DNA of 34,555 bases from a virus. The stretch covers positions 1 to 34,555 of IMG/VR virus record IMGVR_UViG_3300025769_000410, one strand, 5' to 3'. Of this stretch, positions 1-34,555 are shown piece after piece. Numbering within the stretch: the first letter of the stretch is position 1; every line of letters starts with the position of its first letter. The notes under the pieces were generated by a model that was not told where the DNA came from, did not search any database, and saw nothing but the letters and a program-made list of their open reading frames with translations. Position numbers and translations under genes: made by a program.

Positions 1-61
1 GAACTGTTAAAACAACAACCTCTGCCGTGCTGGTAACTGTTGCGTGCTTAGTGTATAGCAT
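1..61 (-). CDS. Partial 5' end of the 112-aa small beta-rich protein gene
   Basis: These bases repeat the first 20 codons of the complete gene at 34034-34372, and the rest lies beyond the left end of the window. Two codons differ from the complete copy: residue 5 is Lys instead of Arg, and residue 17 is Val instead of Ile. The ATG (complement of 59-61) shares one base with the TAA of the M15 gene in a TAATG junction. It is the same locus seen twice on a circular map, not a second gene. Confidence 0.85.
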   Translation of the reverse strand, partial: MLYTKHATVTSTAEVVVLTV

Positions 62-244
62 TATTGGTATGTCCAGACTACGGGCTGACTTGTCCGAGTA
101 TCCACATGAATAAACGTTTTGGCTACCCCAATCCCCGTAAATCCCATATTAAAAGCAGTAATTAGTAGTTTAAAGCGATCTACCCCATTGCTGACGTATA
201 TGTCTGCGGCTATACCCTTTGTATGCATGCCTGGGTGCTCTTTC
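1..244. repeat. Left copy of the contig end overlap
   Basis: Bases 1-244 align without gaps to 34312-34555 with four differences (positions 13, 48, 67 and 118), all transitions. The copy covers the first 20 codons of the 112-aa gene and the distal part of the M15 endolysin gene. This is what a circular or circularly permuted genome gives when an assembly runs past its starting point. A true direct terminal repeat is possible but less likely, because the repeat cuts through two genes. Confidence 0.9.
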
Positions 245-405
245 TTAGCTTCAAGGCTGTGGGATGGATCGCGGTATCCTGATGTAATCGTAAAGGGAAA
301 CTTGCACTCATGCCGTAATTCATCAAGCTTTTCAAGAAACTCAGGGTTCATTTTATTTTCCCCTGTTTCCTGACAGTTAAACTCTTCAATATTAAAGTAC
401 TTCAC
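61..405 (-). CDS. Peptidase M15-family endolysin (VanY/L-Ala-D-Glu peptidase-like)
   Basis: The 114-residue protein carries the M15 zinc-peptidase signature. SGYR lies at about residues 42-45, His61 and Asp68 in HTKGIAADI, and a second metal and catalytic cluster in FIHVDTR with His100 and Asp102. Enzymes of this family cut peptide bonds of peptidoglycan, so a role as the lysis endolysin in the periplasm is likely. There is no signal peptide, so release would depend on the holin at 21874-22251. The start is GTG at 405, preceded by a GGGGA box, and it overlaps the upstream gene by 14 bp. The stop overlaps the start of the 112-aa gene in a TAATG junction across the circular join. Its place just upstream of terminase, far from the holin, is unusual for a lysis gene. 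Length is normal for a single-domain phage M15 protein. Confidence 0.88.
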   Translation of the reverse strand: MKYFNIEEFNCQETGENKMNPEFLEKLDELRHECKFPFTITSGYRDPSHSLEAKKEHPGMHTKGIAADIYVSNGVDRFKLLITAFNMGFTGIGVAKTFIHVDTRTSQPVVWTYQ

Positions 406-823
406 CAGAGTCCCCGTCTATTGTGGTCTGGTTAATGGTGGGGCTATCAGATACCTCAGCCATTCCAACGCCCGTAATGTTAATTTGAATGGCAGATTTA
501 CCACCACTTTGTACCACGTCCTTCTCAAATGCGGCTACAGGTAAGATTCTATCCATTACCAGCTTCCAAGCTGCGGCTTGATTCTTGTGGTCATGGTCAA
601 GTGCCGCATCAAATATAGTATCCAGCACCCTCCTAGACTTGGGGGACGCCAGCATACGAGCCTTATACTCGTTAATAATTCCCGCGTCACCCTTGGGCCT
701 GCCTATCTTTCCCCTGCCACGGCGGGAGTTACTAGCTAAGTCTTTTTGTGTTGGCCTGCCCGATGATTGGGTTCTTTTTTTTGACTTATCATCTATGGGT
801 ACAGGTATCTCTGCATTATCCAT
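392..823 (-). CDS. Putative small terminase subunit or DNA-binding protein
   Basis: The 143-residue protein has a basic N-terminal third with two AT-hook-like GRP motifs (GRPTQ and IGRPKGD, about residues 23-45). A helical middle part follows (about 50-100, NEYKARMLASPKSRRVLDTI and on) and then an acidic, Thr-rich tail. It lies three genes upstream of the large terminase in the same minus-strand operon across the circular join, where many phages encode TerS. The GRPKG plus helical layout resembles several annotated small terminases. That family call rests on context and motif and not on a firm domain match. The ATG at 823 overlaps the preceding small gene by 8 bp, and the end overlaps the M15 start by 14 bp, so translation is probably coupled. 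A general DNA-binding virion protein is the main alternative. Confidence 0.5.
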   Translation of the reverse strand: MDNAEIPVPIDDKSKKRTQSSGRPTQKDLASNSRRGRGKIGRPKGDAGIINEYKARMLASPKSRRVLDTIFDAALDHDHKNQAAAWKLVMDRILPVAAFEKDVVQSGGKSAIQINITGVGMAEVSDSPTINQTTIDGDSGEVL

Positions 824-962
824 CGTCTTCTTTACTGTCCTTTGCTAGCTCAATAAGCTCGGTTAAAGATTCCTCAATAGCAGATAAGCTATCCGAAAGC
901 AAAAAAAGGCTGTTGGTCAGCCTTTCTATTTGGTCGTGGATATCAATGTCTTCAACAGGCAT
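816..962 (-). CDS. Small acidic helical protein, unknown function
   Basis: This 48-residue reading frame starts with ATG at 962, which shares one base with the TAA of the upstream 65-aa gene (TAATG). It ends 8 bp inside the putative TerS gene. The product begins MPVEDIDIHDQIERL and is rich in Leu, Ser and Glu with i/i+3/i+4 leucines (about residues 10-40), consistent with a short coiled coil. The coupled junctions on both sides are the main reason to treat it as real. No family was recognised. Confidence 0.6.
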   Translation of the reverse strand: MPVEDIDIHDQIERLTNSLFLLSDSLSAIEESLTELIELAKDSKEDDG

Positions 963-1159
963 TACTTGCCCATCATAATAATAGAATATCCACCCATACC
1001 CTTGGATTCAGTCTCTTCTGGTGTAGCCTTGGCATCATGCATGGTAGAATAACCCGCATCCTGCATAGACTTAACCTGCTTCTTAGACTTCTCGCACATT
1101 GAATAGTAATCAATAGAGCGATATTCAACGCTATCTCTGGGATCTGGCTTCTCGTTCAT
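962..1159 (-). CDS. Small hypothetical protein
   Basis: The 65-residue protein starts with an ATG at 1159 that overlaps the stop of the preceding basic gene (ATGA). It has an acidic and Tyr/Ser-rich N-terminus (SVEYRSIDYYSMCEKSKK) and a Gly/Met-rich C-terminus (GMGGYSIIMMGK). No domain is recognised. Its operon position near the start of the late transcript, ahead of the terminase genes, suggests an accessory virion or packaging role, which is inference only. Confidence 0.65.
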   Translation of the reverse strand: MNEKPDPRDSVEYRSIDYYSMCEKSKKQVKSMQDAGYSTMHDAKATPEETESKGMGGYSIIMMGK

Positions 1160-1323
1160 TTCTTTTTCTTTCTCCTGGGCTTAGGCACCGCCTCTTGTGG
1201 CGTCCTTGGCGGTTGCCGGTCTGGCGGTCTAGGTGGGTTGTAACCCGCCGGTCGCCTAGATCCCCGCAATCCTGTTCTTGTCCCGCTTCCCCGAACTGTC
1301 CTTCCTGATCTTCGTACTGGCAT
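1156..1323 (-). CDS. Arg/Pro-rich basic protein, first gene of the late operon
   Basis: This 55-residue gene begins with ATG at 1323, preceded by a strong GAGGAGAG ribosome site 5-6 bases upstream, and ends in an ATGA overlap with the next gene. The product is almost entirely low complexity: Arg, Pro, Gly and Lys dominate, with RPPDRQPPRTP in the middle and a RRKKKK tail. Such composition fits a nucleic-acid-binding or DNA-condensing peptide, but no family is recognised. It is the first gene after the GC-rich intergenic island, so the late promoter should lie upstream of 1323. Confidence 0.7.
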   Translation of the reverse strand: MPVRRSGRTVRGSGTRTGLRGSRRPAGYNPPRPPDRQPPRTPQEAVPKPRRKKKK

Positions 1324-1504
1324 AAAACTCTCCTCGTTTATTTTAAATAAGGCTTATTAAGCCCGCCTTACCCCCCCTATCCTATACTAATTCCACATAA
1401 CCGCAATAGTGGTACTTAGAACAAAATGGAATATACAGCCAAAAGGTTATTCTTAAAGGGTTCCAGCCTTTTCAGTTTTGCCGTTTTTTGTATCTGGGTG
1501 GGAA
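1324..1504 (-). promoter_or_regulatory. Leader of the minus-strand late operon with nested palindromes
   Basis: This AT-rich stretch separates the first late gene from the GC-rich island. Two overlapping perfect palindromes, AATAAG-G-CTTATT (1347-1359) and GGCTTA-T-TAAGCC (1351-1363), sit 25-40 bases upstream of the start codon. They could form alternative hairpins or an operator. A run of seven G on the minus strand (1371-1377) lies just upstream. A TTTAAG / TATATT pair with 16-base spacing is visible on the minus strand near 1426-1453, but it is a weak sigma70 match. No promoter can be assigned with confidence. Confidence 0.35.
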
Positions 1505-1594
1505 CTATATATTTGGCCGCCGCTGCCGTCGCCCCCCCGCCGAGTAAATTCGACCCACCTGTGTCTGCTGGGTAGTAGTGTTCGATGTGGCATC

Positions 1595-1660
1595 GAGCCG
1601 ACTGGAGCCGATCCGCTGAGAGAGCCGAGTGAGAGAGCCGACAAAGCATCCCCAGAGCCG
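1595..1660. repeat. Five direct GAGCCG hexamers
   Basis: GAGCCG occurs at 1595, 1605, 1622, 1635 and 1655 in the same orientation within 66 bp. A reverse-oriented copy (CGGCTC) is at 1718-1723. Two of the units extend to GAGAGAGCCGA, at 1618-1628 and 1631-1641. A second short direct repeat, GCGACTAAT, is at 1698-1706 and 1726-1734. The spacing of 10 to 20 bp is irregular. They may be protein-binding sites or leftovers of the decayed inverted copy of the gene, whose intact partner has GAGC-rich codons. Confidence 0.55.
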
Positions 1661-1699
1661 GTTGGTTACATCTGCATCCCTATCCAGCTGGAGCGCAGC

Positions 1700-1922
1700 G
1701 ACTAATACCACCGCCGTCGGCTCCCGCGACTAATCGGGGCGAGCAGAGTGCAGTTCGGCAGCTTGCCACCTGTCTTCGCCTACCATTCCCATCCGACGGA
1801 GGAGCGGGCCGGCCTTCAACCATCATCACGCTTTCGGTCTCCGTTTTCCGTTGGCATTCGACCCTTGGCGTTGTTCCACGCACCCTCGGCTGTTTCCGAC
1901 GCCCAAGTACCATAAACGGTCA
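1700..1922 (-). pseudogene. Decayed inverted copy of the 2183-2524 gene
   Basis: The minus strand here aligns with the plus-strand gene at 2183-2524, including its leader. 1808-1827 matches 2275-2294 in 17 of 20 positions, and 1758-1796 matches 2307-2345 in 29 of 39. Homologous peptides appear in three different frames: NNAKGRM against HNTKGLM, then VMMVEGR against EIMFEGR, then VGWEW followed by a TAG stop against VVWERQ. At least two frameshifts and one internal stop therefore separate it from a working gene. Short fragments still begin after a GAGGAA box (ATG at 1922 or 1913). The 3' limit near 1700 is approximate because similarity fades. Confidence 0.7.
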
Positions 1923-2345
1923 TTTCCTCAGTCGATAGATTTGTACTCGTCGTAGCCTGACATCCGTAACGAATCCACAGCCCGCACCTGTTCGCAAGGG
2001 CCGCGAGAATAACGGTTTCCCGCTGACTCAGTTCCCGCTTCAGCCCGCAAGCGGTCTGGCGTCCACAGAGTCACCGTGACCCTCCGCGATTCACGCTCAA
2101 CTACCCCCTTGCAACCAGGCACAGCCTGTGGAGTTCTACTCCTGTCGGCAACGACACAAATCAATCAACTGAGGAAATAACCATGGCACTTAACATCGAA
2201 AACAACCAAGGGCTTGCCTTCCACAACACCAAGGGCCTCATGCGCAACGAAAAAGCTCCGACCTTCAAGGGCGAGATCATGTTTGAAGGCCGACGATTAG
2301 AGGTTGTCGTCTGGGAACGGCAGACAAAGACAGGCAACAAGATGC
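1758..2345. repeat. Large imperfect inverted repeat centred near 2050
   Basis: The left arm (about 1758-2049) and right arm (about 2050-2345) are reverse complements with small indels. The best block is 1918-1944 against 2156-2182, identical in 24 of 27 positions and covering the leader and ribosome site ACTGAGGAAAT. The axis is a short palindrome, CCGC-AA-GCGG, at 2045-2054. Every matched block I checked gives the same centre (2050-2051.5), so the match is collinear and not chance. The arrangement gives two divergent leaders pointing away from the axis, with the central 210 bp as shared control region. Confidence 0.8.
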
Positions 2346-2524
2346 TGTCGATGGCAGTCGAGGACGCCCACGCCGCTCAGATCGAGCGAGCCGAGAGGAC
2401 GCTGAATTACCTTCGCAACAAAAGCGAAGGCGACGAGCCAGAGCGAGGCGACGACATGGTGAAGGTCGACGAGTCACAGGACGATCACATCAAGCGAACA
2501 GCCGCCAAGAAGAAGGTGGCTTGA
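2183..2524 (+). CDS. Hypothetical GC-rich 113-aa protein, possible small nucleic-acid-binding fold
   Basis: The protein starts with ATG at 2183, 8 bases after an ACTGAGGAAAT leader that is duplicated in inverted form at 1918-1944. Residues 25-60 (PTFKGEIMFEGRRLEVVVWE and on to GNKMLSMAVED) show a beta-strand alternation. It resembles short phage proteins of 'GKGTINGKEYRISGW' type, sometimes thought to be OB-like, but this is a pattern resemblance and no family was confirmed. The C-terminal half is charged and helical (AAQIERAERTLNYLR) with a Lys-rich end (AAKKKVA). Codons are GC-rich, unlike neighbouring phage genes. It is closed by a strong terminator, so it forms its own transcription unit. 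A diverged, broken inverted copy lies on the other side of the 2050 axis. Confidence 0.75.
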   Translation: MALNIENNQGLAFHNTKGLMRNEKAPTFKGEIMFEGRRLEVVVWERQTKTGNKMLSMAVEDAHAAQIERAERTLNYLRNKSEGDEPERGDDMVKVDESQDDHIKRTAAKKKVA

Positions 2525-2530
2525 TTAACC

Positions 2531-2552
2531 AGGGGCTTCGGCCCCTTTTTTC
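2531..2552 (+). terminator. Rho-independent terminator
   Basis: A GGGGC-TTCG-GCCCC hairpin (2532-2545) is followed by six T (2546-2551). The TTCG tetraloop and U-tract make it a textbook intrinsic terminator, placed 7 bases after the stop of the 113-aa gene. Confidence 0.92.
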
Positions 2553-2570
2553 TTTCGTAAGGAGTGAGTT

Positions 2571-2711
2571 ATGGAGACTGTATTTATCTGGTGTTTAAAC
2601 AAGGATGACGGTGTGCACGTTGTGCAGCCTGAATTGACGACAAAAGATGATGACGTAGCTGATGACGACCTGCCGCCACTGTCTTCACTTGGCGAGTTAT
2701 TGGCAGATTAG
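2571..2711 (+). CDS. Small acidic hypothetical protein
   Basis: A 46-residue frame starts with ATG at 2571 after a strong AAGGAG box (2559-2564). The product begins METVFIWCLNKDDG, and its second half is very acidic (KDDDVADDDLPPLSSL). No family was recognised. It is the first gene after the terminator at 2531-2552 and is followed by a GC-rich hairpin. Confidence 0.65.
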   Translation: METVFIWCLNKDDGVHVVQPELTTKDDDVADDDLPPLSSLGELLAD

Positions 2712-2721
2712 CTCGCGTTTC

Positions 2722-2748
2722 ATGCCCCCCGCACAAGTGAGGGGGCAT
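2722..2748 (+). terminator. Hairpin, possible weak terminator or attenuator
   Basis: ATGCCCCC (2722-2729) and GGGGGCAT (2741-2748) form a perfect 8-bp stem with an 11-base loop, 10 bases after the stop of the 46-aa gene. There is no T-run after it, so efficient intrinsic termination is doubtful. It may act as a processing or stability element. Confidence 0.5.
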
Positions 2749-2779
2749 TCAACCCTCGCAATTATTAAAGGATTTGGTG

Positions 2780-2953
2780 ATGTTTAAAATTCTTCCAGAG
2801 ATTTATTTGGTAACAGGAATTGGGTTTTGTATTCATGGCCTGATGACGATGGATAATCAACACGTTTTGTATGGCGTTGGTTTGTTTACGTTGGCAATGG
2901 TAATGATTGCCGCACTGATATTTGATGTTGACTTAAAAAAAGAGAGGCAATAA
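2780..2953 (+). CDS. Small membrane protein with two transmembrane segments
   Basis: A 57-residue frame starts with ATG at 2780, preceded by AAGGA (2768-2772), and ends directly before the next ATG (TAAATG). Two hydrophobic stretches, about residues 7-22 (EIYLVTGIGFCIHGL) and 30-48 (LYGVGLFTLAMVMIAALIF), would span the membrane, with a charged tail DVDLKKERQ. An early-expressed inner-membrane peptide could act in superinfection exclusion or host takeover, but nothing in the sequence decides this. Confidence 0.65.
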   Translation: MFKILPEIYLVTGIGFCIHGLMTMDNQHVLYGVGLFTLAMVMIAALIFDVDLKKERQ

Positions 2954-3295
2954 ATGTCTAATACAAATAGCTTATGGGGAGATGATGAATATTGTTATGA
3001 CGTAGGTAGCAATTACATTATTCACTGTGGGGATTCAGACCTGGCAATTGATGACACGCTGGATTCACATCGTATGCATTGGTGTGAGCATCTAGTTACT
3101 GGCGCTGGTTATGTACGCTGGACACCCCACAAACTTAACCAGTTAGCTAGGTTATACATTCAATCGCAAACCCAACGTACGCATTTAGACGCCAAAGGTA
3201 GAGAGTTAATTGACCAAGTTACCGAAGCGTTCTGGGGATGCACCATGAAAGAAGCAATCACGTTAGTAGGCAAAGGAGAAGCCCATGGGACTTGA
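2954..3295 (+). CDS. Hypothetical protein
   Basis: The 113-residue soluble protein has an acidic N-terminus (SLWGDDEYCYDVGSNYIIHC) with several Cys and His residues. A more basic helical part follows (KLNQLARLYIQSQTQRTH, about residues 59-76). I do not recognise a family. Its ATG follows the preceding gene without a gap, with GAGAGG upstream, and its end overlaps the next start by 11 bp. It is part of the early operon at 2571-3852. Confidence 0.65.
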   Translation: MSNTNSLWGDDEYCYDVGSNYIIHCGDSDLAIDDTLDSHRMHWCEHLVTGAGYVRWTPHKLNQLARLYIQSQTQRTHLDAKGRELIDQVTEAFWGCTMKEAITLVGKGEAHGT

Positions 3296-3695
3296 CCAAT
3301 ATGCATTTAGTGCACCAGAAGCGTTGACTGTCGAGAAAGATGAGGATGGTCGGTTAGCAATTAAAGGTGTTCATGGTGAGGAATTTCAATGGCGAAAGCA
3401 TGCCAAGCTGCAAGAGTTTTTTGAAGGGCGAGTAGCTAGTGGAAGGTTAGTTCCCATGATCCACGACGCTGACTTTAATTGTAATCCTGTGCTTTTGGAT
3501 ATAGGAATCATTGATGATCTTGAAATGGCATTAAAGACTAGGACAATGCCGTCGTCTGGAGGAGGATGTTTTTATGGTCATCAATTTCAGGATGAATCTG
3601 CTGATGACTATAAAGAACAAGACTTAAAGTTTTGCGCATGGGCCAGGGAAGAGATCTCGGGAGGTGACTATGTCTACTACGACTGTTGGTGGTAG
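3285..3695 (+). CDS. Conserved phage protein of the 'MGLDQYA' type, function unknown
   Basis: The 136-residue protein begins MGLDQYAFSAPEAL and continues with a tract resembling 'YWRKHxxLxxWM' (FQWRKHAKLQEFFEGRV, about residues 34-50). It ends in a Cys/Trp/Tyr-rich motif (GDYVYYDCWW). Proteins with this start and the WRKH tract are common in marine and other tailed phages and have no established function. The ATG follows a GGAGAAGCCC box and overlaps the preceding gene. The end overlaps the following zinc-finger gene by 26 bp. Confidence 0.75.
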   Translation: MGLDQYAFSAPEALTVEKDEDGRLAIKGVHGEEFQWRKHAKLQEFFEGRVASGRLVPMIHDADFNCNPVLLDIGIIDDLEMALKTRTMPSSGGGCFYGHQFQDESADDYKEQDLKFCAWAREEISGGDYVYYDCWW

Positions 3696-3852
3696 GTGTG
3701 TCAACTGCGGCGAGGTCAACACGCTGGGTGATTGTTGTCCAATCTGCGCTTCATTCGATTGCGATGTCTGCGGAAAGCAGATTGATTTCGACGACGACAT
3801 CTACTGCGAAAAGACTGATCGCAGGATGTGTATCAGCTGTTCAACAAAGTAA
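3670..3852 (+). CDS. Small double zinc-finger protein (four CxxC motifs)
   Basis: The 60-residue protein carries four CxxC pairs (CVNC, CPIC, CDVC, CISC), enough for two zinc-binding knuckles. ATG at 3670 is preferred over the in-frame GTG at 3664 because GGGAGG (3659-3664) lies 5 bases before it. Small zinc ribbons of this type in phage early operons usually bind nucleic acid or protein partners, but no specific role can be read here. Confidence 0.7.
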   Translation: MSTTTVGGRCVNCGEVNTLGDCCPICASFDCDVCGKQIDFDDDIYCEKTDRRMCISCSTK

Positions 3853-3862
3853 AGTTTGCATA

Positions 3863-3876
3863 CCTTTTAAAAGGTT
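3863..3876. promoter_or_regulatory. 14-bp perfect palindrome upstream of ardC
   Basis: ACCTTTTAAAAGGT is a perfect palindrome in the 85-bp gap between the zinc-finger gene and the ArdC-like gene. Part of it recurs as AAAAGGTT at 3890-3897. It could be an operator or a short stem. No T-run follows it, so it is not a terminator. Confidence 0.45.
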
Positions 3877-3937
3877 GGTAAACTTCGCAAAAGGTTGAGG
3901 GGTTTCCCTTGGCCTTCCTTCAATCAAGGAGTGTTTT

Positions 3938-4774
3938 ATGTCTAACAAATTCAAGCGCATTGTCGCCTTGGTGTCTGAAGCCATGCAAGATGAGTTAACT
4001 TGGCGGAAGACCTGGCAGTCGCAGTCTGGCCTTCATCAGAATTGGATTAGCAAGCGGCCTTATTCTGGGACCAATCAAATTACCACGATGATATCCGCGT
4101 GGAAGAATGATTATAAAAACCCGTATTGGGTAACGTACAAGCAAGCGCAGGATCTTGGCGGCAACGTTAAGGGGCAGACCGCTACACCTGCAATTTTCTA
4201 CGGCACTGGGGAGGACAAAGACAACGAAAAAACCTACAAGTTTGCCAAGCTATACAACCTCTTTAATCTTGAGCAAATAGGCATTGAGGTTCCGCCTATT
4301 CAATTAAGGCAGACAAAGCTTGAGCGTCCATATGAGATGGCTGATGCGTTACAAGTTAAGGTTGATTCTAATTCATCTCACAACCCTTGTTATTCACCTG
4401 TAACAGACAAGATAAAGATGCCGATGCCTGGGCAGTTTGAGTCTGACGATTCACATCAATCCACTTTTTACCATGAGTGTATTCATTCAACTGGTCACAG
4501 CAAACGACTTGATCGTGAGTTAACAGGCATGTTCGGCAGCGAGGACTATGCAAAAGAAGAGCTTGTTGCTGAGCTTGGCAGTGTCTTCTTGTGTGCAGAG
4601 CTTGGTGTTCAATACAACATAGAGCAACATGCTAGTTACATTCAGTCATGGCAAAAGGCTATTGAGTCTGATGCTAATTACCTACTGACTGCATCATCTG
4701 CCGCACAAAAAGCAGCTGAGTATTGCATGAGTCAGTTCCGAATGATGCGACAGTATGACAATGAAGCTGCGTGA
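3938..4774 (+). CDS. ardC: ArdC-type antirestriction protein with zincin metallopeptidase domain
   Basis: The 278-residue protein matches the ArdC layout. The N-terminal ssDNA-binding domain (about 1-130) includes GTNQITTMISAWKNDYKNPYWVTYKQAQDLGG. The C-terminal zincin domain has the HExxH motif HECIH (His179, Glu180, His183) and a downstream EELVAELGS helix (about 207-215) that would supply the third metal ligand. ArdC proteins of conjugative plasmids protect incoming DNA from restriction. Phage homologues are presumed to do the same. Length is close to that of known members. ATG at 3938 follows AAGGAG, and the gene stands alone between a palindrome and a GC-rich hairpin, consistent with early expression right after DNA entry. 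Key catalytic residues are intact. Confidence 0.85.
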   Translation: MSNKFKRIVALVSEAMQDELTWRKTWQSQSGLHQNWISKRPYSGTNQITTMISAWKNDYKNPYWVTYKQAQDLGGNVKGQTATPAIFYGTGEDKDNEKTYKFAKLYNLFNLEQIGIEVPPIQLRQTKLERPYEMADALQVKVDSNSSHNPCYSPVTDKIKMPMPGQFESDDSHQSTFYHECIHSTGHSKRLDRELTGMFGSEDYAKEELVAELGSVFLCAELGVQYNIEQHASYIQSWQKAIESDANYLLTASSAAQKAAEYCMSQFRMMRQYDNEAA

Positions 4775-4786
4775 TCTCGGCTGGAA

Positions 4787-4816
4787 CCGGCCCCCATCCG
4801 TGGGTGGGGGGACCGG
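4787..4816 (+). terminator. GC-rich hairpin after ardC, weak terminator candidate
   Basis: CCGG-CCCCCATCC (4787-4799) pairs with GGGTGGGGG (4802-4810), and CCGG recurs at 4813-4816, 12 bases after the ardC stop. The stem is long and very stable, but the following bases (ATTCCCGCC) are not a T-run. It may partly terminate or stabilise the ardC message. Confidence 0.5.
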
Positions 4817-4849
4817 ATTCCCGCCTCAATCAATTAATTGGAGTTGCTA

Positions 4850-5212
4850 ATGACAGATTTTAGTTTGGAATACGTTGCAAAAGTTTGCCCTGAGCTTGTT
4901 AGGTCTGAAGTAGAAGCAGTGCATGACCATGTGCTTGACACTCACAGACCAAATGAGATTTACCCTGGCGTTGTAAAGCAAGCTGCAAGGAGTTTGTTTC
5001 CATATCAAGCTGCACCAGCTGACAATGTTAGGTTTATTGATGGACGAGATTCAATTAATGCGGCTGTTAATTTGCTTCGGCAAGTTGATGAGTTGCTTTC
5101 ACGTACAAAAAACAATGATGATGTTGCGCAAGTTCAGCTAGATGTGCAGTGTTGTATTCATTATTTGAGCGCTGAGGTTTCGCGAATGGAGTCTACAGAT
5201 GGGGCAGTCTAA
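4850..5212 (+). CDS. Hypothetical protein
   Basis: The 120-residue acidic protein starts with ATG at 4850, chosen over an upstream in-frame TTG at 4838 because TTGGAG (4838-4843) serves as its ribosome site. The N-terminal part (DFSLEYVAKVCPELVRSEVE) and the C-terminal part (INAAVNLLRQVDELLSRTKN and on) look helical. No domain was recognised. It opens a chain of small overlapping genes ending at 6694. Confidence 0.65.
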   Translation: MTDFSLEYVAKVCPELVRSEVEAVHDHVLDTHRPNEIYPGVVKQAARSLFPYQAAPADNVRFIDGRDSINAAVNLLRQVDELLSRTKNNDDVAQVQLDVQCCIHYLSAEVSRMESTDGAV

Positions 5213-5408
5213 AAGTACGGAGCTTTATTACCCCCAAGTTTTGTGCAAAGGTTATTTTAATTGGTGCAAAGCCAATGATGAGCGCCCAACTTTTGAAATG
5301 ATGCACGAATTTATATGTGAAGTTCAAGGATTTAGCGTTCTTAAAAAAGATTATGGCCCAAAGTTTCAATCAATTAAGGAGGCAATTGATGAATTGGATA
5401 AGAGCTAA
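5199..5408 (+). CDS. Hypothetical protein
   Basis: The 69-residue product (MGQSKSTELYYPQVLCKGYF at the start) starts with ATG at 5199 after a GGAG box inside the preceding gene, overlapping it by 14 bp. It ends in a helical segment, SIKEAIDELDKS, and overlaps the next start by 20 bp. No family was recognised. Coupled overlaps on both sides support it as a real gene. Confidence 0.6.
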   Translation: MGQSKSTELYYPQVLCKGYFNWCKANDERPTFEMMHEFICEVQGFSVLKKDYGPKFQSIKEAIDELDKS

Positions 5409-5652
5409 GCGAGTAGAAGAAAGGTTAAACGAAAAAATACAAAACCTTAGAGACTTGCGCGCACATAACATAAAAGAAATGAGGCGCTATTCTCGGTCCC
5501 CGTATTACTCCAAACATACCATGTGTGGAAATATGGAGTATTTTCATAAGGGCAGAGAAACAGCATTTGATTTGTCAATAGAAATTATTGAGATGATTAA
5601 GTCATCCATTGATAGGGAGGTGGTAAATGCAGATACATTGGGAGCACCCTAG
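5389..5652 (+). CDS. Hypothetical charged protein
   Basis: The start at 5389 is set by a perfect AAGGAGG box 7 bases upstream; the longer frame from 5317 has no such site. The 87-residue product has a basic helical N-terminus (MNWIRAKRVEERLNEKIQNL), a Tyr/Ser-rich centre (YSRSPYYSKHTMCGNMEYFH) and an amphipathic C-terminal helix (AFDLSIEIIEMIKSSID). Family unknown. It overlaps both neighbours, indicating coupled translation. Confidence 0.62.
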   Translation: MNWIRAKRVEERLNEKIQNLRDLRAHNIKEMRRYSRSPYYSKHTMCGNMEYFHKGRETAFDLSIEIIEMIKSSIDREVVNADTLGAP

Positions 5653-5836
5653 CTTAGAGGTAACTGTAATTCTTTATTATGAGCCTGGAACTAGAGGCGA
5701 TCCGCCCTGCGCAGAGATTGATAAGATCTATGCAAATGGCAGGTTTCCAGAAAAGGATATCTCTTGGCTTTTCAATCAAGACCACATAATGGACCAGTTC
5801 TGGGACATAAGACCTGACTTGGAGTGTATGTTATGA
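5627..5836 (+). CDS. Hypothetical acidic protein
   Basis: The 69-residue protein starts with ATG at 5627 behind a GGGAGGTGG box and overlaps the preceding gene by 26 bp. It has a beta-like N-terminus (LEVTVILYYEPG) and an aromatic C-terminus (ISWLFNQDHIMDQFWDI). No family was recognised. The stop TGA overlaps the ATG of the next gene at 5833-5836. Confidence 0.6.
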   Translation: MQIHWEHPSLEVTVILYYEPGTRGDPPCAEIDKIYANGRFPEKDISWLFNQDHIMDQFWDIRPDLECML

Positions 5837-6255
5837 GTAACAGTAACTTTAACGAAAATGCAGCATGCAACAATCTTAAGTGGACAAAGCAAGATAATGA
5901 TTTGTTTTATGAGCTTATGAAAGCAGGTAAAACATATGGACAGGTTGCTGTTGCGCTTGGCAGATCTCAAAGATCTATAGAGAATCATGCTTATAAAATG
6001 AGATTGCAAAGAAGAAAGCTGGGTATAAGTGATGCTGACCTTTATGCCAATAGACCACGGCGTAAAAAATCAGCAGTAAACATTGACAAAATTCATCAAA
6101 AGTTTCCCAAACAATCTGAGCCTAAAGCTGTTGAAGTCGAGGGTGCATTGTTTGATAAAAGAATCGGCAACTTGCTGATATGGACAGCCGTACTTACTGG
6201 CGGATGTCTTTTAGCCTTGGTCACTATGACCATTATCTTAATATCAATTGCTTAG
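5833..6255 (+). CDS. Myb/SANT-like DNA-binding domain with C-terminal membrane anchor
   Basis: ATG at 5833 is preferred to the GTG at 5824 because TTGGAG (5819-5824) is correctly spaced. In the 140-residue product, residues about 16-60 (KWTKQDNDLFYELMKAGKTY, then GQVAVALGRSQRSIENHAYK) read as a three-helix Myb/SANT-type DNA-binding unit. A basic linker (NRPRRKKSA) follows. Residues about 114-140 form one hydrophobic transmembrane segment (LIWTAVLTGGCLLALVTMTI). A DNA-binding domain tethered to the inner membrane is uncommon. Possible roles are attaching phage DNA to the membrane or sensing. This is inference from architecture only. Confidence 0.65.
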   Translation: MSNSNFNENAACNNLKWTKQDNDLFYELMKAGKTYGQVAVALGRSQRSIENHAYKMRLQRRKLGISDADLYANRPRRKKSAVNIDKIHQKFPKQSEPKAVEVEGALFDKRIGNLLIWTAVLTGGCLLALVTMTIILISIA

Positions 6256-6264
6256 GAGGCAATT

Positions 6265-6489
6265 ATGAATATCGAAAAGAACATTCCAATTCCTGCCCGT
6301 GGACGATCTGGCAAGTGGCAACAGCTAGGGCAGCAGATGGATATTAACGATTCTGTTTTGTTAACAACTAAAGAAGCTAATTGTTTTAGGTTTGCATTAA
6401 CAAGTAGCGGATTTAAAGTTGTAACAAGAGCAGAGGGGGACAATGTTAGGGTGTGGAAAACAGAGGCAGAAAATGTCAACGGCGCTTAG
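6265..6489 (+). CDS. Small phage protein of the 'GKWxxLxxxMxxxDSVLL' type
   Basis: The 74-residue protein starts with ATG at 6265 behind an AGGAGG box. It reads NIEKNIPIPARGRSGKWQQL, DINDSVLLTTKEANCFRFAL, then SGFKVVTRAEGDNVRVWKTE. This pattern recurs in many small phage proteins with no assigned function. The alternating strand-helix-strand layout with basic residues may suit nucleic-acid binding, but this is not established. It overlaps the next gene by 17 bp. Confidence 0.65.
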   Translation: MNIEKNIPIPARGRSGKWQQLGQQMDINDSVLLTTKEANCFRFALTSSGFKVVTRAEGDNVRVWKTEAENVNGA

Positions 6490-6694
6490 CTACCGCAACT
6501 GTGATTCATGTGATGAGCTTTACCTCGATAACGGGGTAGAGCTTATTCATGCTAACAATAAAATTGAAGATGGCCCTAACGAGATATGGTGTCATCATTG
6601 CCTGGATAATTATTTGGATCATCAATCAAAATATTACGATGAGCCTGACGTAAGTGAGGCTGATGAATGGCATGACTTCGATCCTGATTGCTAG
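6473..6694 (+). CDS. Small zinc-finger-like acidic protein
   Basis: The 73-residue protein starts with ATG at 6473, with GAGGCAG just upstream; the longer frame from 6443 lies wholly inside the previous gene. CDSC (about residues 11-14) and CHHC (about 41-44) form a plausible zinc knuckle, followed by an acidic C-terminus (EPDVSEADEWHDFDPDC). It is the last plus-strand gene before a convergent intergenic region. Confidence 0.62.
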   Translation: MSTALSYRNCDSCDELYLDNGVELIHANNKIEDGPNEIWCHHCLDNYLDHQSKYYDEPDVSEADEWHDFDPDC

Positions 6695-6847
6695 TACAGT
6701 CAAGCGTGTCCAGGGCTTACACTCCTAGCCTGATTGAGTCGGTTGGCGGCGTCCCGATGGACAAAATCGCCGCTCCCCTCCGATCCTCCCGCTGCGGTGA
6801 GCTTGCAGGTTGTTGCTGCGATGGCAGGGCTGGCACTTCCACCCTAT
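6695..6847. other. Convergent intergenic region with structured GC-rich hairpin
   Basis: This gap lies between converging transcription units. GCGGCG (6746-6751) pairs with CGCCGC (6768-6773). Inside the loop GTCC (6751-6754) can pair with GGAC (6759-6762), giving a nested hairpin. No T-run follows on either strand. The minus strand keeps an open frame from about 6880 to 6711 (ending in a Pro/Ser/Gln-rich stretch) but has no start codon, so it was not called. No promoter was recognised. Confidence 0.4.
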
Positions 6848-7081
6848 CTAGCTGAGCGATGGTGCGACTTCTGACAGCCCCTCCGGAGCGGTTGATGGGA
6901 CGGTGCTCTCCGGTTCCAATGCCCCTTCGATGGCACTGCGGGTGGTGAATGGCTTGCCCTTGGCATCGACCATATATTTAATCCCCTGCTTTTCTAACAC
7001 GCGAATAAGTTTGGGCGTGGTGTAAGCCTTGAAGATGTCAAAAAGTTGACGGTAATACAGGTATTCAGATTGATCGTTCAT
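6848..7081 (-). CDS. DUF4224-like small protein (possible DNA-binding or excisionase-like)
   Basis: The 77-residue protein starts with ATG at 7081 behind TTGGAGAG; longer starts run into the upstream terminator. Residues about 8-55 (YYRQLFDIFKAYTTPKLIRV, LEKQGIKYMVDAKGKPFTTR) resemble the DUF4224 pattern of a short helix pair followed by 'LxxxGIxYxVxxxGxPxxxR'. That pattern is found in small phage proteins often encoded near recombination genes. The Pro/Ser/Glu-rich tail is not conserved in that family. A terminator at 7096-7118 separates it from the Erf block, so its expression may depend on read-through. The family call is tentative. Confidence 0.5.
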   Translation of the reverse strand: MNDQSEYLYYRQLFDIFKAYTTPKLIRVLEKQGIKYMVDAKGKPFTTRSAIEGALEPESTVPSTAPEGLSEVAPSLS

Positions 7082-7095
7082 TAGACTCTCCAAGT

Positions 7096-7118
7096 AAAAA
7101 AGCCCCGACAAGCGAGGC
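7096..7118 (-). terminator. Intrinsic terminator on the minus strand
   Basis: On the minus strand GCCTCG-CTTGT-CGGGGC (7118-7102) forms a 6-bp stem with one G-T pair, followed by six T (complement of 7096-7101). It ends the Erf operon after the 7142-7411 gene and lies just upstream of the DUF4224-like gene. Confidence 0.8.
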
Positions 7119-7141
7119 AAAGCATGGTTTTTAAATTAAAA

Positions 7142-7411
7142 CTACCAAGGCACATCTTGTGTTGACGATGCGGGTGGTTTTGTGTCCTCCGACGGCTTCC
7201 ACATATTACGCTCAGCATACCATTTGCCAGAACGACCCTCTTTGATTTCTATGTTAATCCATTCCATATCTGGATCATTTTTTTTCTGCGTTGAAATCCA
7301 TGGGCCTAACTCATCAAGCTTTAATGACAGCTTAAGCTTTACAAAGTCTGGCGCATTGCCATCGGGAAGCTTAACAATCATTCCATCAACAAAGTTTTTT
7401 TCTTCACTCAT
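7142..7411 (-). CDS. Putative ssDNA-binding or recombination accessory protein
   Basis: The 89-residue protein reads NFVDGMIVKLPDGNAPDFVK, KLKLSLKLDELGPWI, EWINIEIKEGRSGKWYAERN. This is strand-rich with a short OB-like rhythm. A Pro/Ser linker and the acidic-hydrophobic end TQDVPW follow, recalling the C-terminal tip of SSB proteins (DDIPF). It is the third gene of the Erf operon, starting with an ATGA overlap. Proteins of this look accompany Erf in other phages but have no proven function. The SSB-like role is inferred from the tail and the neighbours. It is followed by a terminator. Confidence 0.5.
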   Translation of the reverse strand: MSEEKNFVDGMIVKLPDGNAPDFVKLKLSLKLDELGPWISTQKKNDPDMEWINIEIKEGRSGKWYAERNMWKPSEDTKPPASSTQDVPW

Positions 7412-30873: not shown

Positions 30874-32782
30874 TAGCATTAGGTGACTTTCCCTCCAGTT
30901 CACGCTCTTTTAAAAGCCTGTCAGCAATCTTAAGCCTGCGCTCAAACTCTTTATCTTCCGAGTCGCCTTCTTTAAGATTCCTTGTGATTGCATTAATCTT
31001 ATCAATTTCCAGTTCTTGAGGCGCAATCTGCGCTTCAATCGATATCTTAGCTGCGCGAGCCTGAGACTCTGCGGCCTGACCATTAAGCGCATTTGTCTGG
31101 CTTTGTTGAAACTGCAACTGAGCCTGCTGAGCCATTTCAGCAATTTGCTGCGCCTGTGGGTTAGGCTGAGACGCCTGCTGCATTGTCGCAATAAGCTCTT
31201 CTCGGTTACTAAGATTCATGTTATCGATAATGCTTTGGATTAAAACAGGATACATTGGACTGTCCTGCTTCATAGTCTGCAATAGCTGAACTAGCTGAGT
31301 TACCTCATACTCTCTTGCAATAATTCCAAGAGTGCTGGTTGCAACAAACTTATAATCTGCAACCGGATAGTTTTCGGGATCAAACTGCATGTATCGATGA
31401 GCCGCTTTAGTTACAAACGGCAACAAAAATGACTGCTGAAAGTTAATTAAAGTACGCTTATGACGCTTAATAATAGCGCCAAGAGACATACTAATCCCAG
31501 CAGCAGTTGATTCTCCGTTAACTTGACCCGCGATGCCAGCGGAGTCAACAGCCCCTGTAGCTTGCTGTACCATTTGCTGAAGACTTGCGGCTTGGGCAAA
31601 CGTGATTTGGCCCACTTGACCAAAGTTGAAAGGCTGTAAGACTTCACGCGGATCTCCATTGGTTAAAATCATCTTGCCGGGGCGCACTTCTGGCTTAGCA
31701 CCCCTTGGAAGCCTTGTTGCATCTACTGCAATCATTGGGTGAATTGTAAGGCTTAACGCATCTATGCGAGCGCGAAGCTCTGTATCAAGCGCTTTTTGGC
31801 TGTTATAGCCTTTTTCACATACACCACGACCCCAAAATCTTCCTGGCACTACATCCCAAGGAAAAGCAACAACAGGTCTATCACCCATCATGTATGGATT
31901 TTTAGATGCTTTAAGTAATGTTCCGCCATTTGCTATAACAACAATAGCCTCAACATACTTTGAGTCTTCTTCAACCTCAATATCTTCGGCTTCTAAAAGC
32001 TCTCTTGGAACAAGGCCATAATACTTTGTTAATCGAACTTTATCGTCGTTATATATCGTAAAGTCTTGGTCTGGCTCAAGATCAGAGTCTGGGGCCGCCG
32101 ATTCGATTGGCCCCTCCATGTAAGCGCCCTGCTCTTGCAGCAACTCAACGGTGTGCTTGCTTACAAACTCATCAACTGCCACGCCATAAGCGTCATCAAC
32201 TGATGTTGCCACGGGATCAATAAGAAAATTTTGCGGAAGTACAGGCTTAAGCTTTACAACAACTCTGTCAGTAATATTTACACCAACCGCCTGAAGGTCG
32301 CCACCCATGATCGGCTCAGACGCTGGAGCCATTTCTTTAATTTCCTCAATGACCACTTCGCCAATGCCAGTTCCGAATACAGCCGAGTTAATAAGACACT
32401 CTGCAACAGCCTTTCGCACCATGCAGGCTTCAAAATCTTCTCCAAGCTTTTTGCGTAAATACAAAACATCTTGCTTTTGACCGTCAGTGAAATCATCAGC
32501 AATGTCAAACCACTTTCCACGACCAAAGGTAGCCTCCTCAAGCTCTGCAACATTTGACTCAACCGCCTGTTGCAGCGCAGGAGCAATAATTCTGGATCTT
32601 TCAGATGCTCTTTGAGAGTCCGATGGATCCCACTGACCGCGCCAAAGTCTATAATACTCTTCAAACTTGTCTTCGTAGTTTGACTCATAGTAATCACGCC
32701 AGTTTTCACACTTGGTCATAACCCATTCTGCAAGAGATTCTTGAATCATTATTGGGTCTGGATTGTAAATATCTTCTGCCAT
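30755..32782 (-). CDS. Portal protein
   Basis: The 675-residue protein resembles podoviral (P22/T7-like) portals. The N-terminus has EWVMTKCENWRDYYESNYED then FEEYYRLWRGQWDPSDSQRA and SERSRIIAPALQQAVESNVA. The middle reads PVVAFPWDVVPGRFWGRGVC, then KALDTELRARIDALSLTIHP. A Gln/Ala-rich helical crown region is at the C-terminus (AEMAQQAQLQFQQSQTNALN). ATG at 32782, two bases from the terminase stop, is preferred to 32803, which lies inside terminase. Terminase, portal, scaffold and capsid follow in the classic order. The last 40 residues are low complexity and overlap another reading frame. Confidence 0.88.
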   Translation of the reverse strand: MAEDIYNPDPIMIQESLAEWVMTKCENWRDYYESNYEDKFEEYYRLWRGQWDPSDSQRASERSRIIAPALQQAVESNVAELEEATFGRGKWFDIADDFTDGQKQDVLYLRKKLGEDFEACMVRKAVAECLINSAVFGTGIGEVVIEEIKEMAPASEPIMGGDLQAVGVNITDRVVVKLKPVLPQNFLIDPVATSVDDAYGVAVDEFVSKHTVELLQEQGAYMEGPIESAAPDSDLEPDQDFTIYNDDKVRLTKYYGLVPRELLEAEDIEVEEDSKYVEAIVVIANGGTLLKASKNPYMMGDRPVVAFPWDVVPGRFWGRGVCEKGYNSQKALDTELRARIDALSLTIHPMIAVDATRLPRGAKPEVRPGKMILTNGDPREVLQPFNFGQVGQITFAQAASLQQMVQQATGAVDSAGIAGQVNGESTAAGISMSLGAIIKRHKRTLINFQQSFLLPFVTKAAHRYMQFDPENYPVADYKFVATSTLGIIAREYEVTQLVQLLQTMKQDSPMYPVLIQSIIDNMNLSNREELIATMQQASQPNPQAQQIAEMAQQAQLQFQQSQTNALNGQAAESQARAAKISIEAQIAPQELEIDKINAITRNLKEGDSEDKEFERRLKIADRLLKERELEGKSPNANDANRNQQPAGANQQGIPRPNRQAGASPSPIAGIGEQIQ

Positions 32783-32783
32783 A

Positions 32784-34034
32784 TTAATATCCCGATACCA
32801 CATCTAAAATTTCGTGGTCGTCAATTTCATACTCGTAATCGTATGCAACTTGAGCCAGCTGGTCTATGTAAGCCAGCGCATCTACTAAGTCATCATGCGT
32901 TAAGGCATCTGGAAACTGAAATAGCTGGTCAAGAAACCGCGTATTCCACTCTCCCTTGCTTAAAGTAACATAACCATTTTCAAAACGCCCCTGCAATGCC
33001 CACATGACCCTGTCGGTTTTCTTTTTATTTCCATGAGTTAACTCTTCAACACGAAAAAACATACCATATCGTTTCATAAGGTCTGTTAACGGGGACATTA
33101 CTGCTTGTTTTGCTATGCCACGCTCAATTCCTACACTAATAGGGCGATAATCCCTTACAGCCTGAAAGATCTTCATTGCTGTTTCATTTAAATCCCAGCG
33201 CCCATAAATAATGTTTTCTATAAACCATCCATCTGGGTTTACTTTTGCAACCGCAATAGCGGTTTCATCTAGGTTAGTGCTTTTTGTGCGCTTCTTGTTA
33301 ACGTCCTCAAAGCCAGCAAGGTCAACTGCTATATAATAATCACCCTCATCTGGGCAATTACCAAACTTAACCCAGTCCTCTTTAAACATTTCAGAGCCTC
33401 TAGCCTCAAAAGAAGCCATAAACTCCTGCCTAAACGCATAACTTGACATTGATTTCTTTGCAATATCAATCTCATTAGGGTCTAGTATAGGATTATCATA
33501 GCTTGTAAAGTGCCAGCCCCTATAAGTTTCGTCATCTCCAAGCTCTGAATACTTATAAAGATCGTAAAAGTGGTTTCGACCCATCGGAGTGCCAATAAAA
33601 AGCGCCTCGCCCTTTTGATCTGCTAGTGCTGGGCGCAATATTTGCTCCCAAACATCAGGCTTCATGTCGGCATACTCGTCCATTACGAGGTATTTTAAAG
33701 ACACACCCCGCATTGTTTCGGGTCTATCTGCACCTTTAAGGCTGATTGTTGCTCCATTTACAAGTTTAATCTGTAGGTTATTAATATGAGAGCCTGATAT
33801 AACTGGATGACCTAACTCTAGGAGAGTTTGCCACATGATATCCCTGGCCTGCCCCTGAGTTGGGGCCACATAAAAGACATGACCCCTATCGGCCTGAAGG
33901 CCATTAATGATTAACAGCCATGCGGCCAGCCTAGATTTGCCTGTGCGCCTACCTGCGGCAACTACCTTAAAGCGAGTAGGATCAGAATATACATCCTGCT
34001 GCCAAGGCAATAACTCTACATTTAAATCAGACAT
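32784..34034 (-). CDS. terL: Large terminase subunit
   Basis: The 416-residue protein contains Walker A AAGRRTGKS (26-34), the Walker B strand LKYLVMDE (113-120) with catalytic Glu120, and the coupling motif FIGTPMG. The RNase H-like nuclease follows, with acidic residues in YIAVDLAGFED, VGIERG and HDDLVDALAYID. This is the complete two-domain motor that packages DNA into proheads. The length is typical of podoviral terminases. The start shares one base with the 112-aa gene's stop (TAATG). A putative small subunit lies three genes upstream at 392-823 across the circular join. Confidence 0.93.
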   Translation of the reverse strand: MSDLNVELLPWQQDVYSDPTRFKVVAAGRRTGKSRLAAWLLIINGLQADRGHVFYVAPTQGQARDIMWQTLLELGHPVISGSHINNLQIKLVNGATISLKGADRPETMRGVSLKYLVMDEYADMKPDVWEQILRPALADQKGEALFIGTPMGRNHFYDLYKYSELGDDETYRGWHFTSYDNPILDPNEIDIAKKSMSSYAFRQEFMASFEARGSEMFKEDWVKFGNCPDEGDYYIAVDLAGFEDVNKKRTKSTNLDETAIAVAKVNPDGWFIENIIYGRWDLNETAMKIFQAVRDYRPISVGIERGIAKQAVMSPLTDLMKRYGMFFRVEELTHGNKKKTDRVMWALQGRFENGYVTLSKGEWNTRFLDQLFQFPDALTHDDLVDALAYIDQLAQVAYDYEYEIDDHEILDVVSGY

Positions 34035-34372
34035 TAGGAAAAGTTTACAAGCGTAGATGGAGCTTCAAGAAGGTCAAGCGTTACTGCAAACTCAACATCA
34101 CCTGATGATCCCGTTTGAGCCTTGATCTGTTCTCCCGACTGCATAACAAATATTCCGCTAGAAAACTCTTCCCTGTCGTTACTGCCAATGTTTTTAGCGT
34201 CGAGTAGGTGAAGCTCGTCAGTGCCGTCGTCAAAGTACAGGGTGCAGGCATTTGTTGATCCGCCATTATTAGCCACCAGCAAATAACTTACATGAGCAAC
34301 AAATCCTGCTGGAACTGTTAAAATAACAACCTCTGCCGTGCTGGTAACTGTTGCGTGCCTAGTGTATAGCAT
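34034..34372 (-). CDS. Small beta-rich virion-type protein
   Basis: The 112-residue protein reads HATVTSTAEVVILTVPAGFV, then AHVSYLLVANNGGSTNACTL, an alternating strand pattern with Gly/Asn turns. It ends FAVTLDLLEAPSTLVNFS. It resembles small jelly-roll or Ig-like decoration or tail accessory proteins encoded near terminase in podoviruses; no family was confirmed. Its start overlaps the M15 stop and its stop overlaps the terminase start, both in TAATG junctions. The first 20 codons are repeated at 1-61 with two conservative changes. Confidence 0.68.
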   Translation of the reverse strand: MLYTRHATVTSTAEVVILTVPAGFVAHVSYLLVANNGGSTNACTLYFDDGTDELHLLDAKNIGSNDREEFSSGIFVMQSGEQIKAQTGSSGDVEFAVTLDLLEAPSTLVNFS

Positions 34373-34555
34373 TATTGATATGTCCAGACTACGGGCTGAC
34401 TTGTCCGAGTATCCACATGAATAAACGTCTTGGCTACCCCAATCCCCGTAAATCCCATATTAAAAGCAGTAATTAGTAGTTTAAAGCGATCTACCCCATT
34501 GCTGACGTATATGTCTGCGGCTATACCCTTTGTATGCATGCCTGGGTGCTCTTTC
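34312..34555. repeat. Right copy of the contig end overlap
   Basis: This is the partner of 1-244: 240 of 244 bases agree with no gaps. In the endolysin part both changes are silent. In the 112-aa gene they give Arg5/Lys5 and Ile17/Val17. The pattern suggests the two ends derive from slightly different members of one viral population. Confidence 0.9.
34372..34555 (-). CDS. Partial 3' part of the M15 endolysin gene (repeat of 61-244)
   Basis: These bases carry the last 60 codons plus stop of the endolysin at 61-405, with two silent transitions. The 5' part continues past the right window edge and, on the circular map, is the copy at 61-405. It should not be counted as a separate gene. Confidence 0.88.
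   Translation of the reverse strand, partial: KEHPGMHTKGIAADIYVSNGVDRFKLLITAFNMGFTGIGVAKTFIHVDTRTSQPVVWTYQ

Follow-up and report, generated by a model that had tools for sequence, protein, structure and literature searches.

A mirror repeat over an SSB-like early phage gene may be the DNA image of a rod-like antisense RNA

Introduction

Hepatitis delta virus adopts a rod-like fold of ~1 kb, its gene being encoded by the complement of the genomic rod. Not all Obelisks carry a self-cleaving ribozyme. They are rod-like RNAs of ~1 kb with a protein gene in one arm (PMC11922315, PMC13096302). The phage locus analysed here resembles both in its predicted ~1 kb rod and in the protein gene that occupies one arm, and differs in that the rod is encoded in DNA, within a phage genome and beside ordinary phage genes.

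RNA II of ColE1, a replication primer, is a long structured RNA with a G-run, an A-rich 3' region and an opposite-strand RNA on the same DNA, and the R-loop origins of T4 offer a further parallel for R-loop priming. The candidate RNA would share these attributes of RNA II; here, in contrast, the long arms follow a protein gene, and the locus shows no sign of an origin or of an RNase H site. Some RNAs of the GOLLD, ROOL and OLE type occur in phages. These are large, ornate bacterial and phage RNAs (PMC12286853). The structure proposed here is likewise large, but it is a simple long rod rather than a multi-domain fold and has no Rfam match. Cis-antisense RNAs are described in bacteria and phages, with double-stranded products in E. 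coli (PMC7373196). The candidate RNA would similarly be read opposite a gene and cover its ribosome site, and by position it has the expected complementarity, as the right arm (2052-2394) overlaps the open reading frame (2183-2524). It differs in having a second, target-mimicking arm. Ordinary antisense RNAs are not known to have an additional arm of this kind, which imitates the target, co-evolves with it and folds back onto the antisense arm. The likenesses to delta virus, Obelisk RNAs, ColE1 RNA II and the T4 origins offer a lead, not a test.

Results

A single long inverted repeat in the genome

The record under study (W) is a viral record of 34,555 bases, all of which was analysed (the window). 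Window positions 1-244 and 34312-34555 have the same sequence, as placed by the relative L001, in which 1-3062 corresponds to window 31494-34555 and 2819-6271 to window 1-3453. L001 thus joins the two window ends through an overlap of 244 bases, which suggests that the record is a complete genome with a circular or terminally redundant map. In a terminase comparison 1387 phage records were matched, every one below 60% identity, and the collection therefore holds no close relative of W.

The initial annotation had described an inverted duplication in a GC-rich island, with an intact gene in one copy and a decayed version of it in the other. The features of the element as we now place them are as follows.

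1484-2552, minus strand: proposed RNA, with putative ends, from folding; the rod closes at 1513/2508
1484-1507, plus strand: near-invariant box (T-run, GTATCTGGGTGGGAACTA), from a pattern scan of viral contigs; viewed on the minus strand, it would form the 3' edge of the RNA
1532-1538, plus strand: C-run (a G-run on the minus strand) at near-fixed spacing from the box, from box comparison
1717-2047, minus strand: left arm, a probable non-coding mimic that, in the minus-strand RNA, would pair with the right-arm antisense, from alignments, arm tracking and the lack of a conserved frame
2003-2096, minus strand: apical part of the hairpin, conserved in sequence across lineages
2052-2394, minus strand: right arm, antisense to the leader and ribosome site of the reading frame and to its first 70 codons, start codon included, from alignment and fold
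2183-2524, plus strand: 113-aa SSB-like reading frame (DUF736-related; phrog_18154, E 4.9e-6), which opens the rightward early block
2531-2552, plus strand: terminator-like hairpin of the gene (stem and loop at 2531-2546), with the same stem in the other genomes examined

The arms are reverse complements about a single axis at 2049/2050, as proposed. Their local alignment scores 188, against a mean of 26.7 and a maximum of 46 in 1000 dinucleotide shuffles, and 233 of 315 columns are identical (~74%). The strongest gap-free blocks are 1918-1944 with 2156-2182 (27 nt, 89%) and 1810-1831 with 2271-2292 (22 nt, 86%). The limits first assigned to the arms were slightly narrow, since the arms can be aligned over 1717-2047 and 2052-2394 and the fold extends to 1513 and 2508. 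A scan of 1692 centres across the window gave 182 for the element and 38 for the runner-up, making it unique in the genome. Its GC content is indeed raised (0.56-0.59, compared with 0.36-0.52 in 500-base windows clear of it). A second GC-raised stretch, well conserved in relatives, lies at window 6501-7250 (0.516).

Leftward genes end on the left of the element and rightward early genes start on its right. The cumulative GC skew also reverses here, which proves nothing about an origin because the coding strand changes at the same place. Recombination- and replication-type genes sit in the same early block as the SSB-like gene, and an ArdC-like antirestriction gene with ArdcN and MPTase-PolyVal domains lies in this block at 3938-4774. 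Ahead of the leftward genes, at 1355-1391, there is another conserved block, whose C-run (TTACCCCCCCTATCCTATA) resembles that of the main element.

An intact gene on the right and no gene on the left

The intact 113-aa gene claimed for the right arm is present. Profile search gave no Pfam match for its product, and the predicted structure (pLDDT 57) is too poor for fold comparison. Among distant relatives, the DUF736 profile matched the protein of L081 with 23.5 bits (cut-off 22.1) and that of L075 with 18.1 bits, under the cut-off. The terminator placed after the gene stands as a terminator-like hairpin, although sites of this kind are no more frequent in our scan than in shuffled sequence.

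The left copy is broken, as first noted: the three frames of its minus strand contain 4, 2 and 3 stops. We considered the left arm as a second gene and rejected this, as three minus-strand ORFs within it have no PHROG or Pfam match and the frame is unconserved in the 13 lineages examined. The longest ATG frame is 65 aa in W, 61 aa in L062 and 3-47 aa in the others, and a conserved open frame or a distinct intact gene was found in the left arm of none of the 13. Neither outcome that the initial annotation had named as refuting, an arm alignment at the level of shuffled sequence or an intact left-arm gene in homologues, was thus observed.

The initial annotation had also raised a divergent twin-promoter unit with leaders more conserved than the gene. 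The sole sigma-70-like match in 1200-3400 is on the minus strand at 2788-2761, a long way from the axis, and such matches average 2.1 in shuffles, so that this count is below chance frequency; the twin promoter is not borne out, and the match is no convincing promoter for a minus-strand RNA. Greater conservation than the gene holds in part, for the apical portion.

Conservation of the symmetry among relatives

A protein search found 13 viral loci, all of which (13/13) have the inverted symmetry, with the axis 101-142 bases upstream of the gene. Further relatives were gathered by scans with the protein, the box and the apex. Long arms are present in 29 of 36 elements measured, in L093 and L101 and in the truncated L035, giving 32 sequences including W. 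The right arm spans the ribosome site and start codon in all 31 sequences in which it is complete, reaching from 77-149 bases before the start codon to 21-296 bases after it, and in three of them (L062, L087 and L093) the whole gene lies inside the hairpin.

The other seven measured elements (L022, L025, L029, L037, L042, L044 and L048) have no long arms and carry the box before other genes. In a second set of 23 loci, 11 have the box with other genes and no long arms, and 4 are too short to judge. Arm scores at these 18 box loci are 27-39. Box, apex and arms are all absent from the distant SSB relatives L075-L084 (10/10, scores 20-34; L074 is cut off and was excluded).

Two short self-palindromic inserts per element, of the TTTTCCGC...GCGGAAAA type, occur in the apex of L008, L012, L101 and L087, and part of the apex is seemingly repeated in L093. 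The outer part of the left arm groups L008/L010 against L009/L012 differently from the rest of the element, a sequence pattern that suggests recombination between elements.

The left arm follows the right arm of its own lineage

Across 14 lineages, the left arm matches its own right arm best, ties with it, or matches best that of a close sister. In L006 the score of the left arm is 145 against its own right arm but 23, which is noise, against that of W; conversely, the left arm of W scores 175 with its own and 28 with that of L006. For L087 the values are 310-313 with its own right arm and 100 with that of L093, which itself scores 313 with its own. The right arms of L087 and L093 score 58 and 46 against that of W, the gene being barely alignable. 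Because left arms change along with the right arms of their respective lineages, and because the symmetry is kept in 13 of 13 loci, we conclude that the left arm is maintained or regenerated. Duplication followed by decay, as first suggested, was therefore rejected: left arms match the right arms of their own lineages, and independent divergence was not found.

Of the 338 paired columns compared for L087 and L093, 63 differ in the right arm. At 38 of these the left arm has changed to match, with Watson-Crick pairing, while 22 are paired in one genome only and 3 in neither. An RNAalifold consensus of ten genomes has 230 pairs, 39 of them with two-sided changes that keep pairing; for the apical part in 12 lineages the figures are 41 and 22, with some broken cells. 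When partners were swapped, 522-561 of 840-854 cells paired, compared with 596 of 854 for the correct partners. Two-sided changes that do not keep pairing are by no means rare, 12 against 21 kept for W and L008 and 27 against 46 for W and L006.

The spacing of these changes bears on gene conversion. Between W and L008, 22 two-sided Watson-Crick changes are interspersed with 32 conserved non-pairs. For W/L008 and W/L006 the conserved non-pairs that bracket two-sided changes are a median of 23-24 columns apart, some only 5-8, which argues against conversion tracts longer than ~25 columns in these two pairs. The corresponding median for L087/L093 is 84 columns, and the two-sided changes of that pair could be from conversion tracts.

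G-U pairs and folding favour the minus strand

Read from the right arm to the left, A>G and C>T differences leave G-U pairs on a minus-strand RNA, and G>A and T>C differences leave them on a plus-strand RNA. Minus to plus counts are 29:7 in W, 46:7 in L006, 44:5 in L093 and 11:0 in L021, where composition predicts ~1.5:1. The minus-strand class is the larger in all 32 long-arm sequences, which include many near relatives (for example W, L003 and L004) and are not 32 independent events; the arms were located by best identity alignment, which favours pairing generally and neither strand in particular. In seven sister pairs, one-sided changes from Watson-Crick pairs comprise 87 of the minus class, 22 of the plus class and 71 transversions; 87 against 22 gives P = 2.5e-10 if all changes are independent, no genome being reused and four genomes of one mosaic-looking clade giving two of the pairs.

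Strand-specific mutation bias could add to this excess. A regional A>G and C>T bias on the minus strand would enrich that strand in G and T. Summed over ten neighbouring plus-strand genes, third positions lean the opposite way, with G 357 > C 277 and T 546 > A 442 on the plus strand and with variation among single genes. The SSB-like gene has C>G and A>T at third positions, opposite to its summed neighbours.

The minus strand of the element folds at -525.7 (z -10.3, 60 shuffles) into a rod from 1513 to 2508, and thus shows the extended self-pairing, over most of ~1 kb, of a rod-like viroid-like RNA. Its z is lower than that of the plus strand in 14 of 14 genomes (20 shuffles), though the plus strand also beats shuffles in most of them, with z down to -8.4. 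Leader-only elements fold weakly (L027, z -0.8; L021 and L031, about -2.5 to -2.8; 16 shuffles). At box loci with other genes the plus strand has the slightly better z in 4 of 5 folded, L025 being equal within error (16 shuffles). The shuffle sets behind these folding scores are small throughout.

A box and a C-run at the outer edge

The box, TTTTTTGTATCTGGGTGGGAACTA or variants of it, borders the left arm on its outer side and is present once in the window. Its exact pattern occurs in 33 stretches of viral contigs, and a G-to-C variant in 23 stretches. Of 41 distinct boxes, 39 have a run of 6 or more C at offset 39-48 behind them, often with one T inside, and this C-run pairs with the box in the RNAalifold consensus. 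Box and C-run precede unrelated small early genes at the seven armless loci named above and at L091, L092, L097, L103 and others; these loci have long structured leaders and no long inverted arms. As the box is retained, with the C-run, even where long arms are absent, it may have an older, separate function, either as a promoter on the plus strand or as a 3' end or primer site on the minus strand. Twelve contigs stop 29-631 bases right of the box (L018, L020, L023, L028, L030, L033, L045, L047, L099, L100, L106 and L108), perhaps at a hairpin that breaks assembly.

Searches for similar elements

No Rfam family, known self-cleaving ribozymes included, matched at E<=5 in 1200-2700 of W or at gathering score in the window and eight relatives. 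Phage and plasmid records yielded no near DNA relatives and no protein relatives at E 0.01, and of 58 pattern matches in bacterial and archaeal genomes none was confirmed. A shallow literature search, covering the sources in part, found no report of such an element, which is weak evidence of absence.

Discussion

The element is quite likely to be a paired nucleic-acid structure under selection. We propose that the mirror repeat reflects, in DNA, a rod-like hairpin RNA of 0.75-1.06 kb made from the minus strand. Its 5' half would be the antisense of the SSB-like early gene from the leader through the ribosome site and start codon into a variable part of the gene. The RNA would then turn at the conserved apex, and its 3' half, the apparent decayed copy, would be a non-coding mimic arm that pairs back on the antisense half and evolves after it. 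It would end near the conserved G-run and box. Its likeliest work would be to control the first early gene in cis, with the mimic arm locking the antisense arm and so leaving the mRNA free until the hairpin is opened or cut. With G-U pairs, the minus-strand RNA would stay paired while the corresponding positions of the mRNA would be A-C mismatches, and the gene would remain translatable. We infer the making of this RNA, its ends and its work from sequence, and give the whole reading, a minus-strand hairpin RNA that controls the SSB-like gene, a probability of about one half.

Other readings of the same symmetry have to be set against this. Transcription might instead run on the plus strand, with an mRNA that starts at the box and whose ribosome site is masked by the left arm, serving as a long 5' leader. 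The order of box, leader, ribosome site, reading frame and terminator is tidy, TATATA follows the box in many genomes, plus-strand folds beat shuffles in most, and the box precedes long structured leaders at loci of other gene types. Yet the G-U changes expected of a plus-strand RNA are always the rarer class (22 against 87 in the sister pairs, fewer in every long-arm sequence), and the minus fold is better in each of the genomes compared; we regard this reading as unlikely. It is also rather improbable that the same minus-strand hairpin RNA mainly primes replication, in the manner of ColE1 RNA II or the T4 R-loop origins, its 3' G-run and A-rich box holding an R-loop on the C-rich template. 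Such a role would fit the position of the most conserved module, box and C-run, at the putative 3' end, its retention even without arms, a C-run that tolerates T as a hybrid or quadruplex would, and the turn in skew beside recombination- and replication-type genes. The turn coincides, however, with the change of coding strand, and priming offers no reason for arms that invariably span a gene's ribosome site and start codon.

The symmetry might also have no RNA function, if template switching or conversion over short tracts keeps the quasi-palindromic arms alike, or if the pairing works in single-stranded DNA. Conversion does yield concerted change, and most two-sided changes between L087 and L093 fall in long stretches free of conserved non-pairs. 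The closer spacing in W/L008 and W/L006 would nevertheless demand short, repeated tracts, the 4:1 lopsidedness of G-U mismatches is unpredicted by conversion, and the third-position sums of the neighbouring genes run against a regional minus-strand bias, which together leave this account doubtful. An inverted duplication with one copy intact and the other decaying neutrally seems very improbable. It would account for a left arm that can be recognised as a descendant or an imitation of the gene and is broken in every frame, but the arm is kept over wide divergence and re-matched to the gene of each lineage, and its relatives do not decay independently.

The minus-strand hairpin RNA may, tentatively, stand for a class of phage RNA that is new: an antisense rod locked upon itself, with a protein gene in one arm on the opposite strand. 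Its non-coding arm would be selected to re-complement the gene whenever the gene changes or is replaced, and G-U pairs would keep only the minus-strand RNA strongly folded. If this is true, a protein gene and a non-coding arm would be co-evolving over a long range, and the strand of an unseen RNA would be readable from the lopsidedness of G-U pairs in DNA alone. The element would also be a compact test case, either for how an early SSB-like gene is controlled or for a phage origin primed by RNA, and a warning that apparent decayed inverted copies may be structured RNAs.
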